A stretch of 64,000 bases of DNA from a bacterium (lineage in GTDB: Bacteria > Electryoneota > RPQS01). Positions 1,629 to 42,430 of this stretch are shown here, piece by piece. The notes beneath the pieces are model-generated. The model was not told where the DNA came from. It searched no databases and was given only the letters and a program-made list of their open reading frames with translations. Numbering within the stretch: position 1 is the stretch's first letter; every line of letters begins with the position of its first letter. The DNA lies in assembly GCA_023382385.1 (NCBI GenBank), contig JAHDVH010000001.1:1-64000 (forward strand). Reading direction: 5' to 3'. The position numbers were made by a program, and so were the translations under genes.

Positions 1629-1771
1629 TAGGAAATAGTGTATTGGTATAATTTGTTAGCACTGTTTTTTATGGTTTTATGTTGTTTTATTTATTTTTTT
1701 TTACGTGGTAACACCTCTCCGTTGTTTCGCCGGGGGTCAGTTGCCTTTAATTAGTGTTTTTTCGACCCCGC

Positions 1772-1924
1772 GTCCAGCCGCGGTCAGCCGGGTGACGGTG
1801 ACGGTGACGGTCCAGCCGCGGTGCAGCCGGGTGACGGTGACGGTGACGGTCCAGCCGCGGTGCAGCCGGGTGACGGTGACGGTGACGGTCCAGCCGCGGT
1901 CAGCCGGGTGACGGTGACGGTGGT
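1772..1924. repeat. 39-bp GC-rich tandem repeat array upstream of dnaN
   Basis: About four copies of a 39-bp unit containing CCAGCCGCGGTGCAGCCGGG followed by three GACGGT-type repeats. The outer units have CGGTCAGCC where the inner ones have CGGTGCAGCC. Because 39 is divisible by three, open frames of GD or VT repeats run through it, but there is no ribosome binding site or plausible protein context, so I treat it as non-coding. The words GTCCA, CCGCGG and TCAGCCGGGTG also occur in the reverse complement of the array at the left edge. Confidence 0.9.
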
Positions 1925-2184
1925 CAGCGAGGAGAGAATTTGGAATACTATTGTTTTTCGGGGTCAGACTTGGTGGAAACTTGCCAACCGTGTGAAGTGT
2001 TGGTAATTATATATTACCGACACCTTGCGTAGGCAAGTTTTCTTGACTTGGGTTGTTTGGGTTGAGAGGACGCAAGGCTCTAAAATATAGTATCTTATGT
2101 GTGACCAGTGGGAATTTAGGCGGAAGCGACCTCTAAAAGCCCTGTTCGCGCGGGTGTGGGTTGAACATTTGGGCCGCTTTTTAA

Positions 2185-2582
2185 GTTGGTGTTCCGTTGG
2201 TGTTCCACTTGGAACGCCAACTCAAGCTTTGGAACGCGAACTTTGGATGCTGTGTGGTGAAGCAGTCCGAAGATTTTAATGGAGTTGCGGATGGTTGGAA
2301 CGCCAACTCACGATCTGGCTGGATAATATAAGGGGTTTGCACGTTTCCGGGGACACAGGCAGGAACGCGACACAGAGTTTTCTAAGAGTATATTATAATA
2401 TAAATATATAATATATATAGACTTAGTTTTTGAAGTGTTCTCGTCGTAGGATTTTTATGGATGTTAAGGTGGTGGACTTGGAGAAAAGTTGGTGAGTTGG
2501 CGTTACATTTATTGTTAAATATAATAAAAACATAAAGAAAAACGGAACACCTTGACAAAAGTTGGTGTTCCGTTGGTGTTCC
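2185..2582. repeat. 11-bp iteron-like repeats (GTTGGTGTTCC / GGAACGCCAAC)
   Basis: Exact or near-exact copies lie at 2185-2195, 2196-2206, 2561-2571 and 2572-2582 in direct orientation, and at 2211-2221, 2231-2241, 2297-2307 and 2362-2371 in inverted orientation. A one-mismatch direct copy lies at 2496-2506. The two direct pairs are identical and 376 bp apart. Copies 2196-2206 and 2211-2221 form a hairpin with a 4-nt loop; 2294-2307 forms another palindrome, GTTGGaacgCCAAC. Confidence 0.8.
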
Positions 2583-2608
2583 GCAGCCGATTTGTCTGGC
2601 TGGTTGGA

Positions 2609-3218: not shown

Positions 3219-3230
3219 AGACATTGTCAA
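3202..3230 (-). promoter_or_regulatory. Leftward sigma70-type promoter
   Basis: On the minus strand TTGACA (3230-3225) and TATCTT (3207-3202) are spaced by 17 bp, about 37 bp ahead of the ATG at 3165. The -10 hexamer is the same as that of the early promoter at 40.4 kb. Confidence 0.65.
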
Positions 3231-3340: not shown

Positions 3341-4048
3341 ATGGCAGAAGGTTTCTCCCCAGACCCGCCGTCTGCACAGACGGACATGGCCCCGCCGCTT
3401 GCTTTGCCGCAGGTTGGCGGGGCTGTGCCGTTGGTGGATATGGAGGCGGCTGTTCCGAAGATTGTCGCGGAGTTATTGGAGAAGTTTGGACTGGTGAAGT
3501 CGGTGATGACGGAGACGTTGAAGAGTTTCAGTGTTGAGGAGTTGTCAATCTGCCGGCGGAATCTGGGGCGGATGTATGTGGATGGATTGATTCAGAGCGA
3601 GACTGACGCGTTGAACGCGTTGCGGGCGATCGTGAACCACTTATTGGCGTTGAAGGGTTCTGATGTGGGGATGAAGCAATTGACGAAATTGCAGAGTTCG
3701 GAGAGTTTATTCACGCCGTCTGACGCGAAGATTTACGACTGGATTGCGTCGGGGAATATGAAGTTTCACAAGACGGTAGTCGAGATCGAGGAGTCGTCGG
3801 CTTTTTCACAGAAGGCACGGCGGGAGTTGGGGAGTGTGTTGGGGTTCAATATAGAGACATGGATACAGGATGCTCTTGATGAAGAGGATTCGGGGATTGA
3901 CGCAGAGCTTGCGATTGAGGAGATGTTGCGCGAGTCGGCGGTATCTGTTTCAAAGGGAGGTTCTGAAGATCAAGGCGATGTGTTCGTGGAGGAAGGGCAG
4001 CGACGACCGGCTGTAAGCAAGGAGCAGCGGATGGCGTTGCGGGAGTAG
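3341..4048 (+). CDS. Putative terminase small subunit
   Basis: A 235-residue protein directly upstream of the large terminase (3-bp gap), the normal place of the small subunit that recognises phage DNA for packaging. I see no clear signature motif; the call rests on position, size and helical, charged composition. The start ATGGCAGAAGG at 3341 follows a G-rich stretch; an earlier GTG at 3296 would add 15 residues (MCVCLCVVFVLDWGV) and is less likely. The C-terminal third is acidic (EEDSGIDAELAIEEM), as is often seen at terminase interaction surfaces. It is the first gene of the late operon. Confidence 0.55.
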   Translation: MAEGFSPDPPSAQTDMAPPLALPQVGGAVPLVDMEAAVPKIVAELLEKFGLVKSVMTETLKSFSVEELSICRRNLGRMYVDGLIQSETDALNALRAIVNHLLALKGSDVGMKQLTKLQSSESLFTPSDAKIYDWIASGNMKFHKTVVEIEESSAFSQKARRELGSVLGFNIETWIQDALDEEDSGIDAELAIEEMLRESAVSVSKGGSEDQGDVFVEEGQRRPAVSKEQRMALRE

Positions 4049-4051
4049 GGG

Positions 4052-5920
4052 ATGAGTATACGGGAGAAGGATGCGCCGCGGGAGTTATTCCGGAAGTTGC
4101 TGCATCCGATGTTCATTGGCAAGCGGTTGGGCAGGATTCCTTATCCTGCCCAGATGGTGTATATGTTGTGTCCGCATCAGGACAAGGTGGCGATTTGCGG
4201 TCGCGGTGTTGGGAAGTCTACAGTTTTAGAGGCGGACGACATGACGCGTGCGGCGATAGCGATGCCGCATGCGAAGGGATATGTGAACAATGTTTCGAGT
4301 CCGATCCGGTTTGTGGGGTTATTTTTGGCTCCGACGAAGGAGCAGTCTTGGGAATTGGTGAACGAGGTTCGTCAGGGGTTTATGGCGGATCCATTTTTCG
4401 AGACGCGGTTATCTCCATTGACGACCAAGACCAACATAGTGCTGACGAATGGGGCGAGACTGCTGATACGTCCGGCGACGGCCGCGGCGCGCGGCCAGCA
4501 CGCGAAGACGTTGACGGTTGACGGGAAGGTGTTTCGGGGGATTATCCGGATCAAGGTTGACGAGGCGGCGTTTTTGCCGCGCGATGACTATGTGACGGAA
4601 GTGTTAGAGCCGATGCTATTGATAGCAGGGAGCGGGAAGTCGTTGGAGTTATTAACGACTCCGTACGGGAAGACGGGAGATGTATGGACCCGGTATTCGT
4701 CAGCGTCAACGGGGCGGTGTCAGCAGTGGTATTCGTTTGACGAGGAGGGGTTTAAGGTTTACGAGTTTGAGGATGACTTGCGTCGTCCGGTTTTGTTTGG
4801 GAATCAGCAGCCGGTTCCGGAGGTGTTGCGTGGTTCAGGCGGGAGGGTGAAGTTTGATTTGGGGAAGTGCCGCGGTTGTATGCTTCAGTACAAGTGCGTG
4901 GTTCACAATTTTCCGTCGGTAGAGAATCCGTATGCGGATGTGGATTACCTGCTTTCGACGAAGCGGGAGTTGTATGACACGGGTCGGGAGCATGTATGGC
5001 GGCAGGAGTTTTTAGGGATACCGGAATCGACGCGGGGGTTGTTTTTCAACGAGACTCATCAGCGGCGGATGTTCAACGACAGTTTGCCTCAGATACGTCT
5101 TGATGAGGATGGGGAGTTGCGGAAGATCCGGTTATCGGAGCGGATTATGGATTCGCGGGACGAGGGGTTTTACGACGAGCCGTTATCGTATACGGATGTT
5201 CGGGGCAGATTTTATCTATCGATAGACGGGAATGCGGGAGTTGAGTCGAGCCGTGCGGACTATGCAGTTGTGAGTTTGGTGGAGGAGGAGCCGTCTGGTT
5301 ATTGTCCGTTGCGGTTGATGGAGCGGTTTCGGTCTGGCAAGAGTTTGATGCCGCGGAAGAAGGGTGGAGTCCCTGAGCGATTTTTGGACAGCCGGTATAG
5401 CCCGAAAGATGTGACGGTGTTCATCATAGATTTTGTGTCGTATTTGGTGCGGACGTTTGATGTGAAGCGGGTATATATCGATCAAGGATTCGGTCAGCAG
5501 TATTACGTTCCGTTGACGCAGATGTTCGGGGAGAAGTTGATCGAGTATATCCCGAATTCGGCTCAACAAAAAATGCGCAGCTTGCTTCATTTGCGTCAGA
5601 TGATAGACCGGGGGTTGTGTCAGAGTCCCGAGATCGAGTTTTTGCGTCGGGAGATTCAGTACTTAGAGGTTGAAGAGGATTCACTGGAGGAGGATCGGCT
5701 GAAGGTGAAGAAGTCGCGGGGCTGGGGGGTGCTGGACGCTCAGGTGGATGGTGTGTTTAGTTGGGCGTATGCGATGCGGGGAACAGAGAAGGTATTGAAG
5801 CAGGCTTCAATCAGTTTTGATAATTGGTTGCCGATGATGGGGGAAGAGAACGAAGTGTCCGACGGAGAGAATTTATTGTCCCGGCGGGTGAATTTGGGGG
5901 AGTTGGTAGTCGGGGGATAA
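4052..5920 (+). CDS. terL: Terminase large subunit (TerL), ATPase and nuclease
   Basis: This is the 622-residue motor that pumps DNA into the prohead and cuts it. The N-terminal ATPase domain has Walker A GRGVGKST at residues 50-57 and Walker B IRIKVDEA with D170 and E171. The C-terminal RNase H-like nuclease is marked by YLSIDGNAG near residue 388 and VYIDQGFG further on, with Asp residues expected to bind metal. A Cys cluster (CRGCMLQYKC, about residues 270-280) between the domains may bind zinc. Codon use matches the rest of the late operon: G-rich coding strand, Leu mostly TTG. Confidence 0.9.
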   Translation: MSIREKDAPRELFRKLLHPMFIGKRLGRIPYPAQMVYMLCPHQDKVAICGRGVGKSTVLEADDMTRAAIAMPHAKGYVNNVSSPIRFVGLFLAPTKEQSWELVNEVRQGFMADPFFETRLSPLTTKTNIVLTNGARLLIRPATAAARGQHAKTLTVDGKVFRGIIRIKVDEAAFLPRDDYVTEVLEPMLLIAGSGKSLELLTTPYGKTGDVWTRYSSASTGRCQQWYSFDEEGFKVYEFEDDLRRPVLFGNQQPVPEVLRGSGGRVKFDLGKCRGCMLQYKCVVHNFPSVENPYADVDYLLSTKRELYDTGREHVWRQEFLGIPESTRGLFFNETHQRRMFNDSLPQIRLDEDGELRKIRLSERIMDSRDEGFYDEPLSYTDVRGRFYLSIDGNAGVESSRADYAVVSLVEEEPSGYCPLRLMERFRSGKSLMPRKKGGVPERFLDSRYSPKDVTVFIIDFVSYLVRTFDVKRVYIDQGFGQQYYVPLTQMFGEKLIEYIPNSAQQKMRSLLHLRQMIDRGLCQSPEIEFLRREIQYLEVEEDSLEEDRLKVKKSRGWGVLDAQVDGVFSWAYAMRGTEKVLKQASISFDNWLPMMGEENEVSDGENLLSRRVNLGELVVGG

Positions 5921-11353: not shown

Positions 11354-11593
11354 GCGGGCGGCAGAACTTGGTCTGCTTGCACAGATAAGCTGCCGCCCGC
11401 CCGCACCCTTAAGAGGAGAAAGACATGAAGAAGATAGGGAACGAGTTAGTATTGACGCTTCCGGCGGCTCGGTGCGGGCGGCAGAACTTGGTCTGCTTGC
11501 ACAGATAAGCTGCCGCCCGCCCGCACCCTTAAGAGGAGAAAGACATGAAGAAGATAGGGAACGAGTTAGTATTGACGCTTCCGGCGGCTCGGT
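11354..11593 (+). repeat. Perfect 120-bp tandem duplication with hairpin and ribosome binding site
   Basis: The segment 11354-11473 is repeated exactly at 11474-11593. Each copy contains a perfect 11-bp inverted repeat GCGGGCGGCAG/CTGCCGCCCGC with a 25-nt loop (which itself contains GCTT/AAGC), the Shine-Dalgarno AAGAGGAG, an ATG and the first 16 codons of the following gene. Only the second copy leads into the full gene. Confidence 0.97.
11425..11508 (+). pseudogene. Truncated duplicate 5' end of the next gene
   Basis: The first copy of the 120-bp duplication has an intact ribosome binding site and ATG (11425). It reads MKKIGNELVLTLPAARC, runs into the second hairpin copy, and stops after 27 codons at 11508. 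It may be translated as a short leader peptide or simply be a duplication scar. Confidence 0.7.
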
Positions 11594-12804
11594 GCGAGGA
11601 GTTGAGTTTGTCTGTATCGGATCGACGGGACGCATTGTTGGAGTTTATTTTCGGGTCGAAGTTAGATCGGATATTGGGGGAGGAGCAGCGGTTGGGTTCT
11701 GATCCTATGTTGGTTTTAGCGTCGGGATTTTTGGACCGCGGGAAGTTGGTGAACGGGGAGCAGACGTGGGTGTTTGGGTGGTACGGTCTGTGGATGACGA
11801 CGGGGGATTACAGCGGTTTCTACACGAAGAGTTTAGTCGGCGCTCCGATGTATCGTGGTCATATTGGGCACGAGGAATGGCATGAGCCGCCGTGTTCGAT
11901 AGTCTGGGCTGGGATGCGGAGCGAGTTGTCGGGTTTGGGTGGAGGTTTTGGTGGGGTTGACGAGCCGGCGGTGATATTTTATCCGAAGGCGGACGAGACG
12001 AAACTGCGGAGCAGTTTGCGTCATGCGATGATTATGGGAACGATGGAGCGGGATTTTCCGATGAGCTTGCGTCATCCGACGGGTCTGGAGTTTGATGAGC
12101 AGACGCAGCGGATTTTGAAGGTTCGACATCCGAAGCGGACGTCGTTGGATTTTGTGCGGAATCAGGGGACGGAGGAGGCGGCAGCTGAGAAGATGATGGC
12201 ATTAAGCGCAGGTCAAAACATAGAGACAGGAGAACAGGCGATGCGGTACCAGTTTGAAACGATTGAGGCGATGCTTGCGGACAAGGATGTTCAGCGGGTG
12301 ATCGCGGAGGAAACGACGAAGGGGGTGTCCGCGGCGCTCTCGAAGCCTGAGAAGGTGGAGGAGATTGTGTTGTCGGCGCCGGCGGAGGTGGTGCTGAAGC
12401 ACAGGGGGTTGATCGGGTATGTGAAGGTTGACGAGATTGTGGAAAAGATTTCGCCGGAACAGGTCGAGCAGTTATTGTCGTCGAGGCCGGAGGTCATGGA
12501 ACAGGCTTTGTCGGCTCAGAAGCATCTGGAGGATCGCAAGGCGGAGGTGTTGTCGGCGATGCGAGCGCATGGGGTTCAGCACAAGTTGCCTGAGATGGCA
12601 TTGAACGCGGCGATCGCGACGGCGGATCTGAGCAGTTTGACGAAGGAGCAGGGGATCGCGAAGATTGACGCGGCGTTGAGTGCGTGTGGTCTGAAGTGTT
12701 CGGGCGGGTCGCAGGGCGAGAGCGAGCGCCCGGAGCATCAGGATGGCGAGTCGGTTCGGCGGTCTGTGGTGAGCCGCGCGGCGTCGGCGGTGCTTGGCCG
12801 TTAG
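11545..12804 (+). CDS. Putative head assembly protein (scaffold/protease position)
   Basis: A 419-residue protein directly upstream of the putative major capsid gene, where siphoviruses carry a prohead protease, a scaffold or a fusion of both. Residues 1-225 look globular. From about 230 the sequence is helical and charged (MLADKDVQRVIAEETTKGV, EKISPEQVEQLLSS), and the last 60 residues are low-complexity and basic (SERPEHQDGESVRRS), which resembles scaffold regions. I do not see a convincing catalytic triad. The start at 11545 follows AAGAGGAGAAAGAC inside the second repeat copy. Confidence 0.5.
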   Translation: MKKIGNELVLTLPAARCEELSLSVSDRRDALLEFIFGSKLDRILGEEQRLGSDPMLVLASGFLDRGKLVNGEQTWVFGWYGLWMTTGDYSGFYTKSLVGAPMYRGHIGHEEWHEPPCSIVWAGMRSELSGLGGGFGGVDEPAVIFYPKADETKLRSSLRHAMIMGTMERDFPMSLRHPTGLEFDEQTQRILKVRHPKRTSLDFVRNQGTEEAAAEKMMALSAGQNIETGEQAMRYQFETIEAMLADKDVQRVIAEETTKGVSAALSKPEKVEEIVLSAPAEVVLKHRGLIGYVKVDEIVEKISPEQVEQLLSSRPEVMEQALSAQKHLEDRKAEVLSAMRAHGVQHKLPEMALNAAIATADLSSLTKEQGIAKIDAALSACGLKCSGGSQGESERPEHQDGESVRRSVVSRAASAVLGR

Positions 12805-36333: not shown

Positions 36334-36922
36334 GTGCTGAGTTCCTTTCTGTTAGAATGATCCCGATCATATTGAAGTAGTTGATGAAGTCAGGGAGGAA
36401 GGTTCCGCGGTACGACACATCGAAGAGTTTTTCCGGATTTCTGGTGATGCCCTGCCGGTGGACAATGAGAGCCGCGTGGCAGACGTCGCGATGCCCTTCA
36501 AAAGCGTCCATGCAGAGGGCTTCCAAGATCTCGAAGCTGTTCTGGACGTTGAGCAGGTCGCTATAATTGGTGACGTATTGCGGAGCCAGTTGGCAGAGGG
36601 GGAGGGCAGCGATGCCATGCTCTGCGAACCAGTCATGACGGTTTATGCCCGCGGGTGGCGGCGGTGCGGAATTCAGGGATAATTCCGGTCTGAACTTTTT
36701 CCATGACACATCCCCTCCGGTCGCGGCCAGACAATAGGCAAGGCAAAATTGTCGGAAGAGCGGATTTTTTCCGGATAAAAGGTGCTGCCAGCGATGAACA
36801 AACTCGGTAGTGAGTTTACGATGTCTGGCATGCAGCACTTCAACAAAGAAGGCTGGTTCGACGCCGACGAGTTTGGATTTTGATTCATCGAATCCGATGA
36901 TTTTCCAGTTGTCGTATTTCAT
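36317..36922 (-). CDS. Hypothetical early protein
   Basis: A 201-residue soluble protein (MKYDNWKIIGFDESKSK) with mixed helices and a Pro-rich turn (APPPPAG). It overlaps the upstream stop through ATGA. It lies between the primase-helicase block and the PolX-like gene. No family recognised. Confidence 0.6.
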   Translation of the reverse strand: MKYDNWKIIGFDESKSKLVGVEPAFFVEVLHARHRKLTTEFVHRWQHLLSGKNPLFRQFCLAYCLAATGGDVSWKKFRPELSLNSAPPPPAGINRHDWFAEHGIAALPLCQLAPQYVTNYSDLLNVQNSFEILEALCMDAFEGHRDVCHAALIVHRQGITRNPEKLFDVSYRGTFLPDFINYFNMIGIILTERNSAHERQI

Positions 36923-37311
36923 AGTTTTTCAATGAACTCGGAGAGTCTTGGATTACTCAGAGCAAGCAATGTTATTTTGACTTGCTCTCCTGTAACCGTA
37001 TGCGAATGATTTCGTCTGGTGTGGTAGAAGACCCATTGTTGATGGAAGACGACTTCTCCCTCTGTGGAGCGGGTCAGGAGTTTGGCGGTTTTCTTGGATC
37101 CGAGTTTTTGTTCGAGGATTTGAATGACGCCGATCGGGTCAGCACCGAATAGATTGCGCACAATATCCAGTTTAGGAGTATTGGCTCTGGGCAGGGCCAC
37201 GCCGAGCATATTGGCGATCGTCCGAACATGGGAAGGCGAGACATGATGGCGATCGGCGATTTGATCGGCAGATCCCGATTTATTCAGGATGTCCCGTTCG
37301 AGGTCACTCAT
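36919..37311 (-). CDS. Hypothetical protein with possible N-terminal HTH
   Basis: A 130-residue protein starting at ATG 37311 after AGGGAAATCGG; an earlier ATG at 37338 would add nine residues. Residues 3-32 (DLERDILNKSGSADQIADRHHVSPSHVRTIA) read as a helix-turn-helix. The rest is helical and basic. It overlaps the primase-helicase stop by 8 bp, implying translational coupling and a role in replication or its control. Confidence 0.55.
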   Translation of the reverse strand: MSDLERDILNKSGSADQIADRHHVSPSHVRTIANMLGVALPRANTPKLDIVRNLFGADPIGVIQILEQKLGSKKTAKLLTRSTEGEVVFHQQWVFYHTRRNHSHTVTGEQVKITLLALSNPRLSEFIEKL

Positions 37312-39955
37312 CCGATTTCCCTTCTTCGGACTCATCATCGAAGGGCACTTCGTAATCGAGGGGGAAGCGTTTATCGATCATGGCTTTTTCGATTTTCCCA
37401 ATGTCCAATCTGACATAAGTCAGGTTTCCGTGTTCATTTTTGGCACGGACTCCGTATTCCTGTTCTGTGCAGATGCTGGTTTTAGTGGTGAGGCATTTTT
37501 CCAATGAGTTGTCGCCGCGGGTGCGCGGGAAATACTTCAGTCCGGCCAATCGGTGCAGATATTTATGCACGAGTTTGACCGGGTACCAATTGTAGCGGAG
37601 TTCGTCCGGTCTGTCGTCGAAGGAGATGGGTTGGACATCTCCAGTTTTAACCATTTGGCGAAGTCCGGCGAGAAAAATGCCGAAGGTGTCTTTTTCGACC
37701 ATGCTGCGAATTTTCGCCCGCGTCAGTTTTTTGCAGGCGTCAATGGTGAACTTGAGGACTGATGTAGGAATGTTCAGTTCGTCCTCGTCGTCTGTTTTCA
37801 GCGGGTAGGTGTTTCCGCTGCTGAAGTCGAGGGCAATGGCGACGGCGAGGAAGTTTCCCCAGATTTCTGCTTCTCGGTTGTTCAACCCAAGCGACTTAAG
37901 AATGGATCGGTCTTCGTGAAGTTTTTCGTAAATCGAGCGGACTTGGGGAGCGTGTGCGATGGCCCAATAATACATTCGATTACGGAGTTCGCGTGTGGAC
38001 TGAGCTTCCTGCTTTTCTTGAAAGTTTTCGATGATGACGTCGGAGGGGCACATTTGCGCATAGAGCAGGATCATGCGGGAGAGCAGAGTGGTATTGTAGC
38101 CTTTGGTGTTGCTGAAGATTTTAGGTCCGTAGACCTCAAAGGCTTTGGTAATCATGCGTTTTCCGTCTATCGGGACTTGCCGCAGGATAGGGGTTCCTTC
38201 TTTGTATCCGGAATAGACGGCGAGGATTTGCTCGTCCACTGTGTCGTTGACGACGGCCTGAGAGTGATATTTCTCAGCTTCATCGAAGGCGAGTGTGACG
38301 CCGGCTTCGTCGGTGACGTGAAACAGGGAGGAGAGGCTGGTGCTGGCAACGGGTTGGGTGTTAAAGCAGAGGCTGGTGAGGATTTGCAGTACGGTGCTTT
38401 TCCCGGATCCGGGTGTTCCGGTGATGCCGATGTATCCGGTAGCCGGGAAGACGCTGTAGCAGTAGGTGTAGATGGAATACAGGGAGAGGAAGGAGTAGAT
38501 CTCTTTATCAGCAAAGAACACAAACCGCTTAATGAAGTTTTGTGTGTCAGCAAAGAGACTAAAACCGTCCGGGGCGTCATCGACTCCATGTTCGAGCCAT
38601 TGGCTAACAGAGAATTTATCCCGCGGTTCAGTACTCCAGCGGAATCCGATCATGCTGGGTTCTGTGTTGTTTGGGAAGCGCAGGGAGCGAGTGTGCATTT
38701 CCGTGGATTCCGCGGCGAAGTAGTCCTGTTTTGAGGTGACTAAATAGGGGGTGTCGACAATCACGCTGAGTTTTTGTCCATTTTCGACACGCGTGCGAGT
38801 GGTGCTTCGCCAAACGGTATAATAGAGCATGCCATTTTGAAATGATTGCCCGGGTCGGATGGTAGTAAATAGGGCAGCGTTAAGCTGATCGGTTTCAGAG
38901 GCTTCTCCGCGGCTGGATTTGCTCGCTTGTTTTGCGATGCGAGTAAACTCGTTGCTGATGACGGCGCCTTGCCCCGTTTTTTTACGGATCCTGTCAATCA
39001 GGTTGCGGTTGACCAGTTCGCTGCGGTGGCTGACGATGCGGGCGAGGTCATCAATGCGGTTGGTCAGCTCGGTGGCTGAGGGGACTTCCTCGAAGGCACG
39101 TTCGGCGAGATCATTAAAGTCGAGGGCGCGGTCGATCCATTCGATAAGGTGTTTGGGTTCATGGGTTTTGAACCAGTCGCAGATGTCGCCTTTGCCATAC
39201 GTGGCAAGAAAGTCTTGCGGGTAGACCAAGATTTTCAGGTTTGACAACTGAGCCATGTGCGGCAGCAGTTCAAAGATTTTATCCGCCGCGGATTTCCCGG
39301 GGATAAATTTCTGGGTTCCGTCGGCAAGGGTGGTTAGGCCGCCTTGTGACGGTTTCAATACATCGGCGTCCGGAATCCAGATCGGCGAAGATAGTTTACG
39401 CAGGATCCCTCGCTGATACGTGTTCCAGAGTTTTGCTCCGATGGCAATGGCCGGGAAGCCGTGCTGCTGGAGGAGCAGTGCGTGGGTATGCCCTTCCACG
39501 ACAAAGCAGAGGTTATTGTACTCCGGCTCAAGATAGAACGGACGTTCGTCGATTTTAGCGACGTCCATTTTCATGTGCAGGAATTTCGGCGCGCTGGTAT
39601 TTGCGACGGCATCGGTTTTCCGTCCTGACCAGTAGCGCACGGAGTTGTTGATCAGGTAGGGGAACACGACTCGTCCAGAAAAGAACGAATAGATTCCGAC
39701 AGATCCCGCTGAGCATAGTCCGAAATAGTCGGCCGCGATGATTTCATCCGTGCGCAGTCCTGTCAGTTGTTGGATGATATTGAACGTGTTTTCGGTTGCT
39801 GGGACATAGCCCACTTTGAACCGTTTGCATGATTCCGCCGTGATTCCATACTTTTGCTGAATGGTTTGTCCGTCAATCAAAACAGAATCAAACTCTTGTT
39901 GCAGGCAATGCGCCCAATGGTCGGCGAGTTTGCCCCATACGTCGTGCAAGGACAC
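37304..39955 (-). CDS. Toprim primase fused to an AAA/P-loop helicase-like domain
   Basis: An 883-residue replication protein. The N-terminal half has a DnaG-like core with RVVFPYLINNSVRYWSGRK and a Toprim site: FVVEG (151-155), PDAD (about 195-198) and KGD. The C-terminal half has Walker A GTPGSGKST (513-521) and Walker B LAFDEAE (555-561), followed by helicase-like helices. It lacks its own zinc finger, which is encoded at 34269-34580. It starts at GTG 39955. It should prime and unwind DNA at the phage fork, possibly starting at the iteron region near 2 kb. Confidence 0.8.
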   Translation of the reverse strand: MSLHDVWGKLADHWAHCLQQEFDSVLIDGQTIQQKYGITAESCKRFKVGYVPATENTFNIIQQLTGLRTDEIIAADYFGLCSAGSVGIYSFFSGRVVFPYLINNSVRYWSGRKTDAVANTSAPKFLHMKMDVAKIDERPFYLEPEYNNLCFVVEGHTHALLLQQHGFPAIAIGAKLWNTYQRGILRKLSSPIWIPDADVLKPSQGGLTTLADGTQKFIPGKSAADKIFELLPHMAQLSNLKILVYPQDFLATYGKGDICDWFKTHEPKHLIEWIDRALDFNDLAERAFEEVPSATELTNRIDDLARIVSHRSELVNRNLIDRIRKKTGQGAVISNEFTRIAKQASKSSRGEASETDQLNAALFTTIRPGQSFQNGMLYYTVWRSTTRTRVENGQKLSVIVDTPYLVTSKQDYFAAESTEMHTRSLRFPNNTEPSMIGFRWSTEPRDKFSVSQWLEHGVDDAPDGFSLFADTQNFIKRFVFFADKEIYSFLSLYSIYTYCYSVFPATGYIGITGTPGSGKSTVLQILTSLCFNTQPVASTSLSSLFHVTDEAGVTLAFDEAEKYHSQAVVNDTVDEQILAVYSGYKEGTPILRQVPIDGKRMITKAFEVYGPKIFSNTKGYNTTLLSRMILLYAQMCPSDVIIENFQEKQEAQSTRELRNRMYYWAIAHAPQVRSIYEKLHEDRSILKSLGLNNREAEIWGNFLAVAIALDFSSGNTYPLKTDDEDELNIPTSVLKFTIDACKKLTRAKIRSMVEKDTFGIFLAGLRQMVKTGDVQPISFDDRPDELRYNWYPVKLVHKYLHRLAGLKYFPRTRGDNSLEKCLTTKTSICTEQEYGVRAKNEHGNLTYVRLDIGKIEKAMIDKRFPLDYEVPFDDESEEGKSDE

Positions 39956-39958
39956 TGG

Positions 39959-40249
39959 CTATGCCTCGTTGCAGATTTTCTCGGCCAGTGTTTTACGTTT
40001 AGTGTAAGTTCGGGGTTTTGGGGGAGCGTCCGCTCGTTGGGGGAAGCGGAGGATGTCGTCCTGCCGAAAACGGATGATTCCACCAATCGTCTCGTAGCCT
40101 ATGGCGTCCTTGTTCCGATAGACCCACCGAACAGAAATGCCCCAGATTTCCGCCACTTCGTCCGCGGACAGATAAGTCCCCGGCGGGAAGTCGTGAATAC
40201 TGAGGCGTTGCTTTTTTGGAGGATTGGTATTATTTTGCATAAACGGCAA
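39959..40249 (-). CDS. Excisionase-like HTH DNA-binding protein
   Basis: A 96-residue protein. Residues 24-75 (YLSADEVAEIWGISVRWVYRN, GGIIRFRQDDI) match the AlpA/excisionase type helix-turn-helix, in which a winged HTH reads DNA. The basic tail KPRTYTKRKTLAEK supports DNA binding. It is the first gene of the leftward early operon, so it may be an excisionase or an early regulator. The start may be 40249 or the ATG at 40240. Confidence 0.7.
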   Translation of the reverse strand: MPFMQNNTNPPKKQRLSIHDFPPGTYLSADEVAEIWGISVRWVYRNKDAIGYETIGGIIRFRQDDILRFPQRADAPPKPRTYTKRKTLAEKICNEA

Positions 40250-40293
40250 GGTTTGCCCAGATATTCATACTGGGTGAGGTTTGTCGAAAGCAA

Positions 40294-40338
40294 CGCGCTG
40301 GCGGCCCTCATGGTTGGCTGCCTCGGGGCCGCCGCGCG
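40294..40338. promoter_or_regulatory. GC-rich hairpin in the early leader
   Basis: GGCGGCCC (40300-40307) pairs with GGGCCGCC (40326-40333), extended by CGCG/CGCG outside. It lies in the untranslated leader of the leftward early transcript, between promoter and first gene, and could be an attenuator or antitermination site. Confidence 0.5.
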
Positions 40339-40414
40339 TATCTCAAGAGTTCTATTGGATTTGCATTAGGATTGGGGGCTAATGTTATATCCTTTAGTAA
40401 CTCTTTTGCGCTGG

Positions 40415-40443
40415 AAGATACTATCTTAAAAGATAAAAGTCAA
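40415..40443 (-). promoter_or_regulatory. Leftward early promoter with overlapping operator half-sites
   Basis: On the minus strand TTGACT (40443-40438) and TATCTT (40420-40415) are spaced by 17 bp. The same DNA holds three alternating half-sites, AAGATA c TATCTT aa AAGATA (40415-40435), giving palindromes of 13 and 14 bp that cover the -10 box and spacer. This is the expected binding site for the repressor encoded at 40471. Confidence 0.75.
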
Positions 40444-40470
40444 GCACGGAATGAATAGTTAGGTCAAATT

Positions 40471-40816: not shown

Positions 40817-41236
40817 ATGAATTTGGCAATAAGAATGCGCGCAGAGGTGGGTCAGCCTTGTGGAGCGATAGATATTTTCAGGTGGGAAGAATACTGGGGT
40901 GTGCGGCTATGGTATGCCGATCTTCCGGAGGTGATTCGGGCGGCAGCGGATAGAACATATCGGATCATCTTGTTGTCGAAGGATATTGATGCTTCTGAGG
41001 AGCGGTTCTTATTTGCGCATGAGTTGTCTGAGATTTTGTACCCGTCGTTGAATGGATACCACGGTCGCTTCTATAACGAGTTCGCCGGTCATTTGGTGGC
41101 GCCTCCACCAGTGCTTTATGAGCTTTGGATGAATCAATGGACAGTGGGTGAGCTTGCGAACGAGTTTGGTGTAACCATTAGTGTTGTCTTGTACCAACTT
41201 AGACTTATGGCTCCGGTTTATGGCTTCACTTTATGA
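40817..41236 (+). CDS. ImmA/IrrE-like protein with altered metal motif
   Basis: A 139-residue protein. RFLFAHELSEILYP matches the HExxH helix of ImmA/IrrE metallopeptidases, but the final His is Glu (HELSE). NEFAGHLVAPP matches the downstream family pattern E-x-x-A-x-x-(L)-x-x-P. ImmA cleaves the ImmR-type repressor upstream of it to induce mobile elements. The loss of a zinc ligand could make it inactive or dependent on another ligand. It overlaps the integrase start by 17 bp. Confidence 0.7.
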   Translation: MNLAIRMRAEVGQPCGAIDIFRWEEYWGVRLWYADLPEVIRAAADRTYRIILLSKDIDASEERFLFAHELSEILYPSLNGYHGRFYNEFAGHLVAPPPVLYELWMNQWTVGELANEFGVTISVVLYQLRLMAPVYGFTL

Positions 41237-42329
41237 GCGACAATTCAAAGCGGGGGGGAGTGTCTGGTATTTGCGGGTTAAGCTTCCGACTGGGCGGTGG
41301 TATGCTTGGAATTCGGGGATTCCGTCACGAAGTGCGACTGGGGAATTGATTAATGATCAGAAGGCGCGGAAAGATCTGCTGAAGATTCAGGGGTTGATCG
41401 ATGCAGGGATTGATCCGTTTGCGGAGACAGGCGATGGCATAGAGGTGAGGAGTGCGGCGGAAGAGTACTTGCGGGAGCGGTCGATGTTTTGGGGTCAGCG
41501 GACCCTGCCGTTGCATGAGAATACATTGCGGATGGTTTGTGCGGCTGTGGGGGAAGTGTCGATAGCAGCGCTGACTGATGCGCATTGGAAATTGATTGAG
41601 ACTGGATTTCGGCGCGGGGTGTCCGTTCATACGTTAAACATCGACATCCGGAACTTGCGTGCGTTTTTGCGTTGGGCGAAGACGAGATATGGACTGGATG
41701 GTTGGAAAATTCCGGTCATTTCTGAATACCATGTAGGACAGTCTTCTCATAGGGATTTTTTTGACCCGGAAGAATCCGAGAGGTTGGTATACGCGGCGAC
41801 GGGAATCAAAGTAAACGGGAGTTGTTTTGGGTCTTATGTTGCGTTTCTCTTGTTGACTGGGTTGCGTAAGCGCGAGGCGTTGGCGTTACGCTGGGAGCAC
41901 ATCAGCAAGTCAAGCAAGATGATCTTGCTTTCTCGTACAAAATCTGGACGTGCGGAAATGTTTCCAATACTCGAAGAGGTGGGGGTTGTGCTGGATCGGA
42001 TAGGAGGAGGGGTTAGGCGTGGTCAGTTGTGGGAGATGTCGATGTGGTCAGGCCATATTGATGTTTGTTGGGCGCGGGCGGTGCGGACCGCGGGGGTTAG
42101 ATGGTTGAAGCTCCATAACTGTCGGGATTCGTTTGCCGTAAATCATTTGCTTGAGGGGATGCCGCTGGCCGTGGTGAGCAGGTTGCTGCGGCACGGGGAT
42201 ATTTCCACGACAATGAGGAATTACGCCGGGTTTTCATTGGAGGATATTTCGGCGATCATGCGAGGAGGAGGCCCTGTGCAGTCGCCGGGGTCTTATGTTA
42301 CTGCTGTGTTACGTGGCTTAGGTAGATAG
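41220..42329 (+). CDS. int: Tyrosine recombinase, phage integrase
   Basis: A 369-residue integrase with all core residues visible: R216 in TGLRKREALALRW, a Lys in SRTKSGR, H299 and R302 in HNCRDSF, H325 in LLRHGD and the nucleophile Y335 in MRNYAGF. The N-terminus has a small arm-binding domain (YERQFKAGGSVWYLRVKLP), followed by a SAM-like core-binding domain. It starts at ATG 41220 and lies 20 bp from the tRNA-Gly fragment, so it catalyses integration at that site. Confidence 0.93.
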   Translation: MASLYERQFKAGGSVWYLRVKLPTGRWYAWNSGIPSRSATGELINDQKARKDLLKIQGLIDAGIDPFAETGDGIEVRSAAEEYLRERSMFWGQRTLPLHENTLRMVCAAVGEVSIAALTDAHWKLIETGFRRGVSVHTLNIDIRNLRAFLRWAKTRYGLDGWKIPVISEYHVGQSSHRDFFDPEESERLVYAATGIKVNGSCFGSYVAFLLLTGLRKREALALRWEHISKSSKMILLSRTKSGRAEMFPILEEVGVVLDRIGGGVRRGQLWEMSMWSGHIDVCWARAVRTAGVRWLKLHNCRDSFAVNHLLEGMPLAVVSRLLRHGDISTTMRNYAGFSLEDISAIMRGGGPVQSPGSYVTAVLRGLGR

Positions 42330-42348
42330 TTGATTTATATTTGATTAT

Positions 42349-42397
42349 GTCAGCTTCCCAAGCTGGAGGTTGCGGGTTCGAGTCCCGTCATCCGCTC
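42349..42397 (+). other. Prophage attachment site: 3' part of tRNA-Gly(CCC)
   Basis: The sequence TCAGC TTCCCAA GCTGG forms an anticodon stem-loop with anticodon CCC, then the variable loop and T arm (GCGGG TTCGAGT CCCGT) and the acceptor strand CATCCGC with T/C discriminator region. The 5' half, which should begin GCGGATG, is absent; the DNA upstream is AT-rich phage sequence. This is the usual scar where a tRNA gene was interrupted and the phage copy restored it at the other end. Confidence 0.85.
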
Positions 42398-42402
42398 AAA
42401 TA

Positions 42403-42430
42403 AAAACAACAGCCCGTGCTGTTGTTTTCT
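42403..42430 (+). terminator. Terminator after the tRNA-Gly fragment
   Basis: A perfect 11-bp stem AAAACAACAGC/GCTGTTGTTTT with a 4-nt loop and a T-rich 3' arm. It is presumably the original terminator of the tRNA-Gly transcript. Confidence 0.85.

Follow-up and report, generated by a model that had tools for sequence, protein, structure and literature searches.

A candidate iteron-type replication origin beside the clamp gene of a temperate prophage

A non-coding interval near the start of the window, by which we mean the whole 64,000-nucleotide stretch of DNA analyzed here, contains repeated copies of an 11-bp word in both orientations. This raises the question of whether these repeats mark the site at which a prophage begins to replicate or instead serve packaging, transcriptional control, partition or recombination. 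We favor the hypothesis, with a probability of about 0.66, that positions 2185–2582 are an iteron-type replication origin of a temperate phage of roughly 45 kb and that this origin is worked by the phage's own primase-helicase. If this is right, it provides a defined and testable origin for a phage without a close relative in the collections searched.

The prophage and the genes of its left arm

The original prediction assigned the locus to a prophage, and the element is indeed an integrated temperate phage. Its attL lies in a tRNA-Gly(CCC) at the end of contig C6, and its attR (42348–42409, + strand) consists of 62 bp that are identical to the 3′ part of this tRNA and beyond (C6:121418). A tyrosine integrase (41181–42329, + strand) adjoins attR, and a terminase is encoded within the element. 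Contig C1 ends at the left edge of the window, and a genome search with the unit of the 40-bp tandem array at 1–218 led to contig C6. Because this array also ends C6, the prophage continues into that contig, and given the 62-bp repeat of the tRNA it therefore spans C6:121418 to window position 42409. Its size is roughly 45 kb plus collapsed repeats, and ~42.4 kb of it are in the window.

The prophage genes in the window include those for a beta clamp, TerS and TerL, structural proteins, a methylase, a primase-helicase and a repressor-like protein, and the product of 39959–40249 resembles an excisionase. The left arm in C6 encodes an LPD29-domain protein and, near attL, a second tyrosine recombinase (locus L072, 18005–19093) besides the integrase on the attR side. 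No close relative was found with TerL among phages, viral contigs, genome contigs and 99 related genomes or with the primase-helicase among phages and viral contigs, and no relative that keeps the iteron region was found in the collections searched. GC-rich tandem arrays with units of 35–49 bp surround the left-arm genes (C6:121738–122113, C6:123898 to window position 218, and window 1772–1922); one of these arrays is in the opposite orientation, and the arrays also broke the assembly. In addition, there is a perfect 120-bp tandem duplication over the start of a structural gene (11354–11596).

The repeats were originally described as bordering a DNA polymerase clamp gene. The neighbor is a DNA polymerase III beta-clamp gene (320–1547, − strand), although it is split into two overlapping frames (1065–1547 and 320–1282). 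The frame change falls at a run of six A in 1250–1285, and the gene is either a pseudogene or affected by an assembly error. A Type II hammerhead ribozyme (255–321, − strand; RF02276, 42 bits against a gathering threshold of 37) overlaps the end of the clamp gene. Its core is intact (CGAAAC/GUC/CUGACGAG), and it probably cuts the leftward transcript. Prophages were already known to carry type II hammerheads (PMC3088659).

The 11-bp repeats and the DNA between them

The repeat unit at 2185–2582 is GTTGGYGTTCC, and it is present in eight full copies, six of them exact and two with one mismatch, and in two truncated copies. Thus, the original count of at least nine copies in 400 bp stands if the partial copies are included. 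The copies fall into a left group (2185–2307) and a right group (2488–2582). The left group opens with a pair of exact copies of GTTGGTGTTCC at 2185 and 2196 (2185–2206, + strand), followed by copies on the − strand at 2211–2221 (exact GTTGGCGTTCC), 2231–2241 (GTTCGCGTTCC, one mismatch) and 2297–2307 (again exact GTTGGCGTTCC), of which the first forms an 11-bp stem and a 4-nt loop with 2196–2206. In the right group (+ strand from 2488 to 2506), a truncated copy, GTTGGTGA, at 2488–2495 is followed by a copy with one mismatch, GTTGGCGTTAC, at 2496–2506, then by a truncated inverted copy at 2544–2551 (− strand, GGTGTTCC) that forms a stem with 2564–2574, and finally by exact copies of GTTGGTGTTCC at 2561 and 2572 (2561–2582, + strand), a pair identical to the first. 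Within both pairs the units are arranged head to tail, each 11-bp unit corresponding to about one helical turn.

The claim of identical direct pairs 376 bp apart is verified by an identical 24-bp pair with this spacing, and that of inverted copies forming hairpins is borne out by the hairpin potential of 2180–2240 (z −2.9) and 2530–2600 (z −3.3). The complement named in the original prediction (GGAACGCCAAC) was in error and is actually the complement of the C variant (GTTGGCGTTCC). A match to ctRNA_pT181 at 2526–2617 scored far below threshold and is taken as a chance match to the hairpin.

The original interval of 1640–2604 is wider than the repeats, which occupy 2185–2582 only. The rest includes a GC-rich 39-bp tandem array of about four copies (1772–1922), related to the arrays that flank other left-arm genes, and, to the left of the iterons, a nested inverted repeat of 64 bp with a strong hairpin (1977–2040; z −5.4). 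The inner arms of this inverted repeat are 11 bp long (GTGTTGGTAAT/ATTACCGACAC) and surround TATAT; it could be a recombinase site or an RNA hairpin. As originally claimed, no gene was found in 1640–2604.

Several lines of evidence suggest that the cluster is not a product of chance. Seven matches to GTTGGYGTTCC with at most one mismatch were found in the window against 1.16 expected, a count reached in 0 of 100 shuffles. The largest local cluster comprises six sites, whereas simulated sequences gave at most four, whether the local region (1000 Markov simulations) or all 42.4 kb of prophage in the window (12 simulations) was modeled. An unbiased repeat scan identified the iterons as the sole dispersed short-repeat cluster in the 42.4-kb prophage part of the window; the three further matches corresponded to the 120-bp duplication (~11.4 kb) and to the GC-rich arrays. 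Furthermore, a search of this single genome (2.9 Mb) with the 22-bp pair gave no occurrence outside the iteron region.

The left and right groups bracket a candidate DNA unwinding element at 2378–2427, which ranks first in the 42.4 kb as the least stable of all 50-bp stretches in the prophage part of the window (−46.2 vs. a mean of −74.0 kcal/mol). A second AT-rich stretch between iterons (2503–2552) is the third least stable, so that the description of the repeats as flanking AT-rich tracts is well founded. DnaA boxes adjoin many, although not all, iteron-plasmid origins; none was found near these iterons, and the closest match is at 3802. The features of an origin that are present at this locus are clustered short repeats in non-coding DNA, beyond chance expectation, and an adjoining, easily melted AT-rich segment, and the candidate is phage-borne and lies beside the phage clamp gene.

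The arrangement of the copies also bears on the proposal that they form an operator cluster through which a phage repressor or activator controls leftward (clamp) transcription or transcription at the origin. Promoter-like sequences at 2497–2525 (+ strand) and 2558–2529 (− strand) share bases with copies in both inverted and direct orientation, but there are ten promoter-like matches in this AT-rich region, which gives them little weight, and the genes adjoining the iterons start elsewhere. Moreover, there is no copy in the repressor/excisionase intergenic region (40250–40470), at the clamp promoter (1628–1600) or at the promoter at 3230–3202, and we regard an operator function as improbable.

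Strand bias and the proposed initiator

In each of the 31 genes or gene pieces of the prophage that were tested, on either strand, G exceeds C on the + strand at third codon positions (skew of 0.11 to 0.75), whereas the skew of the flanking host genes is near zero. Between C6:121418 and window position 42409, this bias reaches 0.86 at fourfold sites. Transcription alone does not explain the skew because the minus-strand genes have the same sign. When the circular map is opened at the iterons, and only then, their skew, followed over 14 minus-strand gene pieces, declines steadily along it (rho −0.77, p 0.0012); this cut was set beforehand and is also the best of 14 cuts. Bidirectional replication would be expected to give a sign change at the origin, and since none was seen at the candidate origin, one-way replication fits better. 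The gradient is suggestive of one-way replication that starts at the iterons; another cause could also account for the minus-strand trend. A strand-bias gradient of this kind would be a simple, sequence-only way to locate the origins of orphan prophages.

Neither this start of the strand bias nor an AT-rich melting segment between the two groups is expected if the repeats are recognition boxes for TerS in a pac or cos packaging site. Packaging sites are commonly near terS, and the repeats precede the putative start of terS (~3342) by 0.76–1.2 kb, with terL at 4052, but two leftward genes lie between the repeats and terS, and we consider a packaging site unlikely. It is very improbable that the repeats are a partition, incompatibility or copy-control locus or the recombination site of the second tyrosine recombinase, given that no ParA or ParB was recognized among the prophage proteins scanned, that the element is integrated and that the most recombinase-site-like inverted arms (1977–2040) are separate from the iterons, even though repeats and hairpins are typical of such sites too and the left arm carries this recombinase.

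The iteron-origin reading of the original prediction remains the best supported, based on the repeats around the weakest-melting DNA, the skew gradient from the repeats and a primase-helicase with some iteron-bearing relatives. This protein of 883 aa is encoded at 37304–39955 (− strand), ~7.4 kb from the iterons on the circle, and combines a DnaG-type primase core, recognized by a DNAG_N domain and by profile matches to DnaG structures, with a Walker-A ATPase. The model of its C-terminal domain (pLDDT 35) is too low in confidence for use. No recognized Rep initiator was found among the prophage genes. The helix-turn-helix (HTH) proteins encoded at 39959–40249 and 36919–37338, which had originally been put forward for binding tests, are possible iteron binders, and we prefer the primase-helicase over both as the candidate.

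Distant relatives of the primase-helicase, with 20–29% identity, are found in other genomes and in one viral contig. Short-repeat clusters are present at three of eight such loci (L105, L097 and L096), in two cases at the 3′ end of the helicase gene: L105 has seven copies of GGTGGCGCC within 215 bp, the first of them 5 bp past the stop codon, and the five repeat copies of L097 fall inside the helicase gene itself, at its 3′ end. In L096, five copies of TGGTCCCGT are ~2.7 kb downstream of the gene. No cluster was found in the DNA examined for the other five, some of which are short contigs. If the iteron-origin hypothesis is true, it connects short-repeat origins with a family of phage primase-helicases about which little is known.

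According to this hypothesis, a phage initiator, most likely the primase-helicase, would bind the iterons in both groups, melt the AT-rich segment at 2378–2427 and load itself there, and the neighboring phage-encoded clamp may assist the polymerase. Judging from the strand bias, replication would leave the iterons mainly in one direction, rightwards, cross the genes for the terminase and the structural proteins, continue around the excised circle and end in the left arm at the clamp gene. A more far-reaching version, which we think doubtful, is that of a split replicon: its DnaG-type primase-helicase would act remotely on non-coding iterons by the clamp gene, and strictly one-way replication would produce the extreme, phage-wide bias.

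The 11-bp word is also found elsewhere. Exact gap-free pairs are present in two viral contigs, both times in DUF1376 genes (L010, 7370–7391; L011, 2752–2773). In these genes, which belong to unrelated phages, the head-to-tail 11-bp repeats are out of step with the codons, which suggests that origins may be located inside the genes. A DUF1376-type initiator was rejected for the present prophage, as there is no DUF1376 in this genome. Three genome contigs also contain the exact gap-free pair; one of them, a small Chloroflexi contig (L103), has thirteen 11-bp units close to CGGAACGCCGA at 2204–2349, after Rep-like and primase-like genes. A phage primase/ATPase gene (L106) has a shorter form of the pair at its 3′ end. 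The contexts in L101 and L102 (exact 22-mer) and in L107 and L108/L109 (19-mer) look like chance. When gaps of 0–30 bp were allowed, there were 54 matches to repeat pairs in viral contigs, of which the gapped ones were in-frame, mostly GTPT-type coding repeats, and were dismissed as coincidence; among these matches, DUF1376 genes held only the gap-free pairs of L010 and L011. The plasmid blastn matches were weak coding matches (E 0.4). Taken together, the contexts of the unit elsewhere hint at replication and do not thereby make the prophage kin of those phages. In the split-replicon version, the occurrence of one GGAACGCCAAC unit at replication genes in phages that are not related would suggest that they have in common a class of origin-binding domain that has gone unrecognized.

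Comparison with known origin systems

Satellite phage P4, with its alpha protein and ori/crr, has a primase-helicase fusion and short iterons in two repeat groups. The prophage is similar in all of these respects, the fusion being its candidate initiator, but its DnaG core represents a different primase type, and membership in a P4-like family was not found in Pfam, NCBIfam or PHROGs scans. In the lambda/Stx ori, which is served by the O protein, the iterons lie beside an AT-rich tract inside the initiator gene (PMC7466680). The likeness consists of four to six iterons adjoining an AT-rich tract; unlike those of lambda, the prophage iterons are non-coding, in both orientations and on both sides of the AT-rich segment, and no lambda O-like protein was found in the prophage.

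As in the PLE RepA_N origin (PMC7145576) and in iteron plasmids (PMC4980987), the repeats are non-coding and the initiator, here a candidate, is encoded by the element. In contrast to these systems, no RepA_N or Rep_3-type initiator was recognized in the prophage, its 11-bp units are shorter than the 17–22 bp plasmid iterons and DnaA boxes are absent nearby. The helicases of SaPI and SCCmec (Cch2) bind iteron origins via their C-terminal domain, and SaPI-type origins are directly downstream of their own helicase gene (PMC7581432). The prophage differs from these elements in that primase and helicase are fused, the iterons are ~7.4 kb away from the gene rather than directly downstream of it, the iteron sequence is unrelated and the element is a full phage rather than an island. 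What it shares with SaPI Rep/ori and SCCmec Cch2 is an AAA helicase of a mobile element as the proposed initiator, together with origin repeats, such that no separate Rep would be needed.
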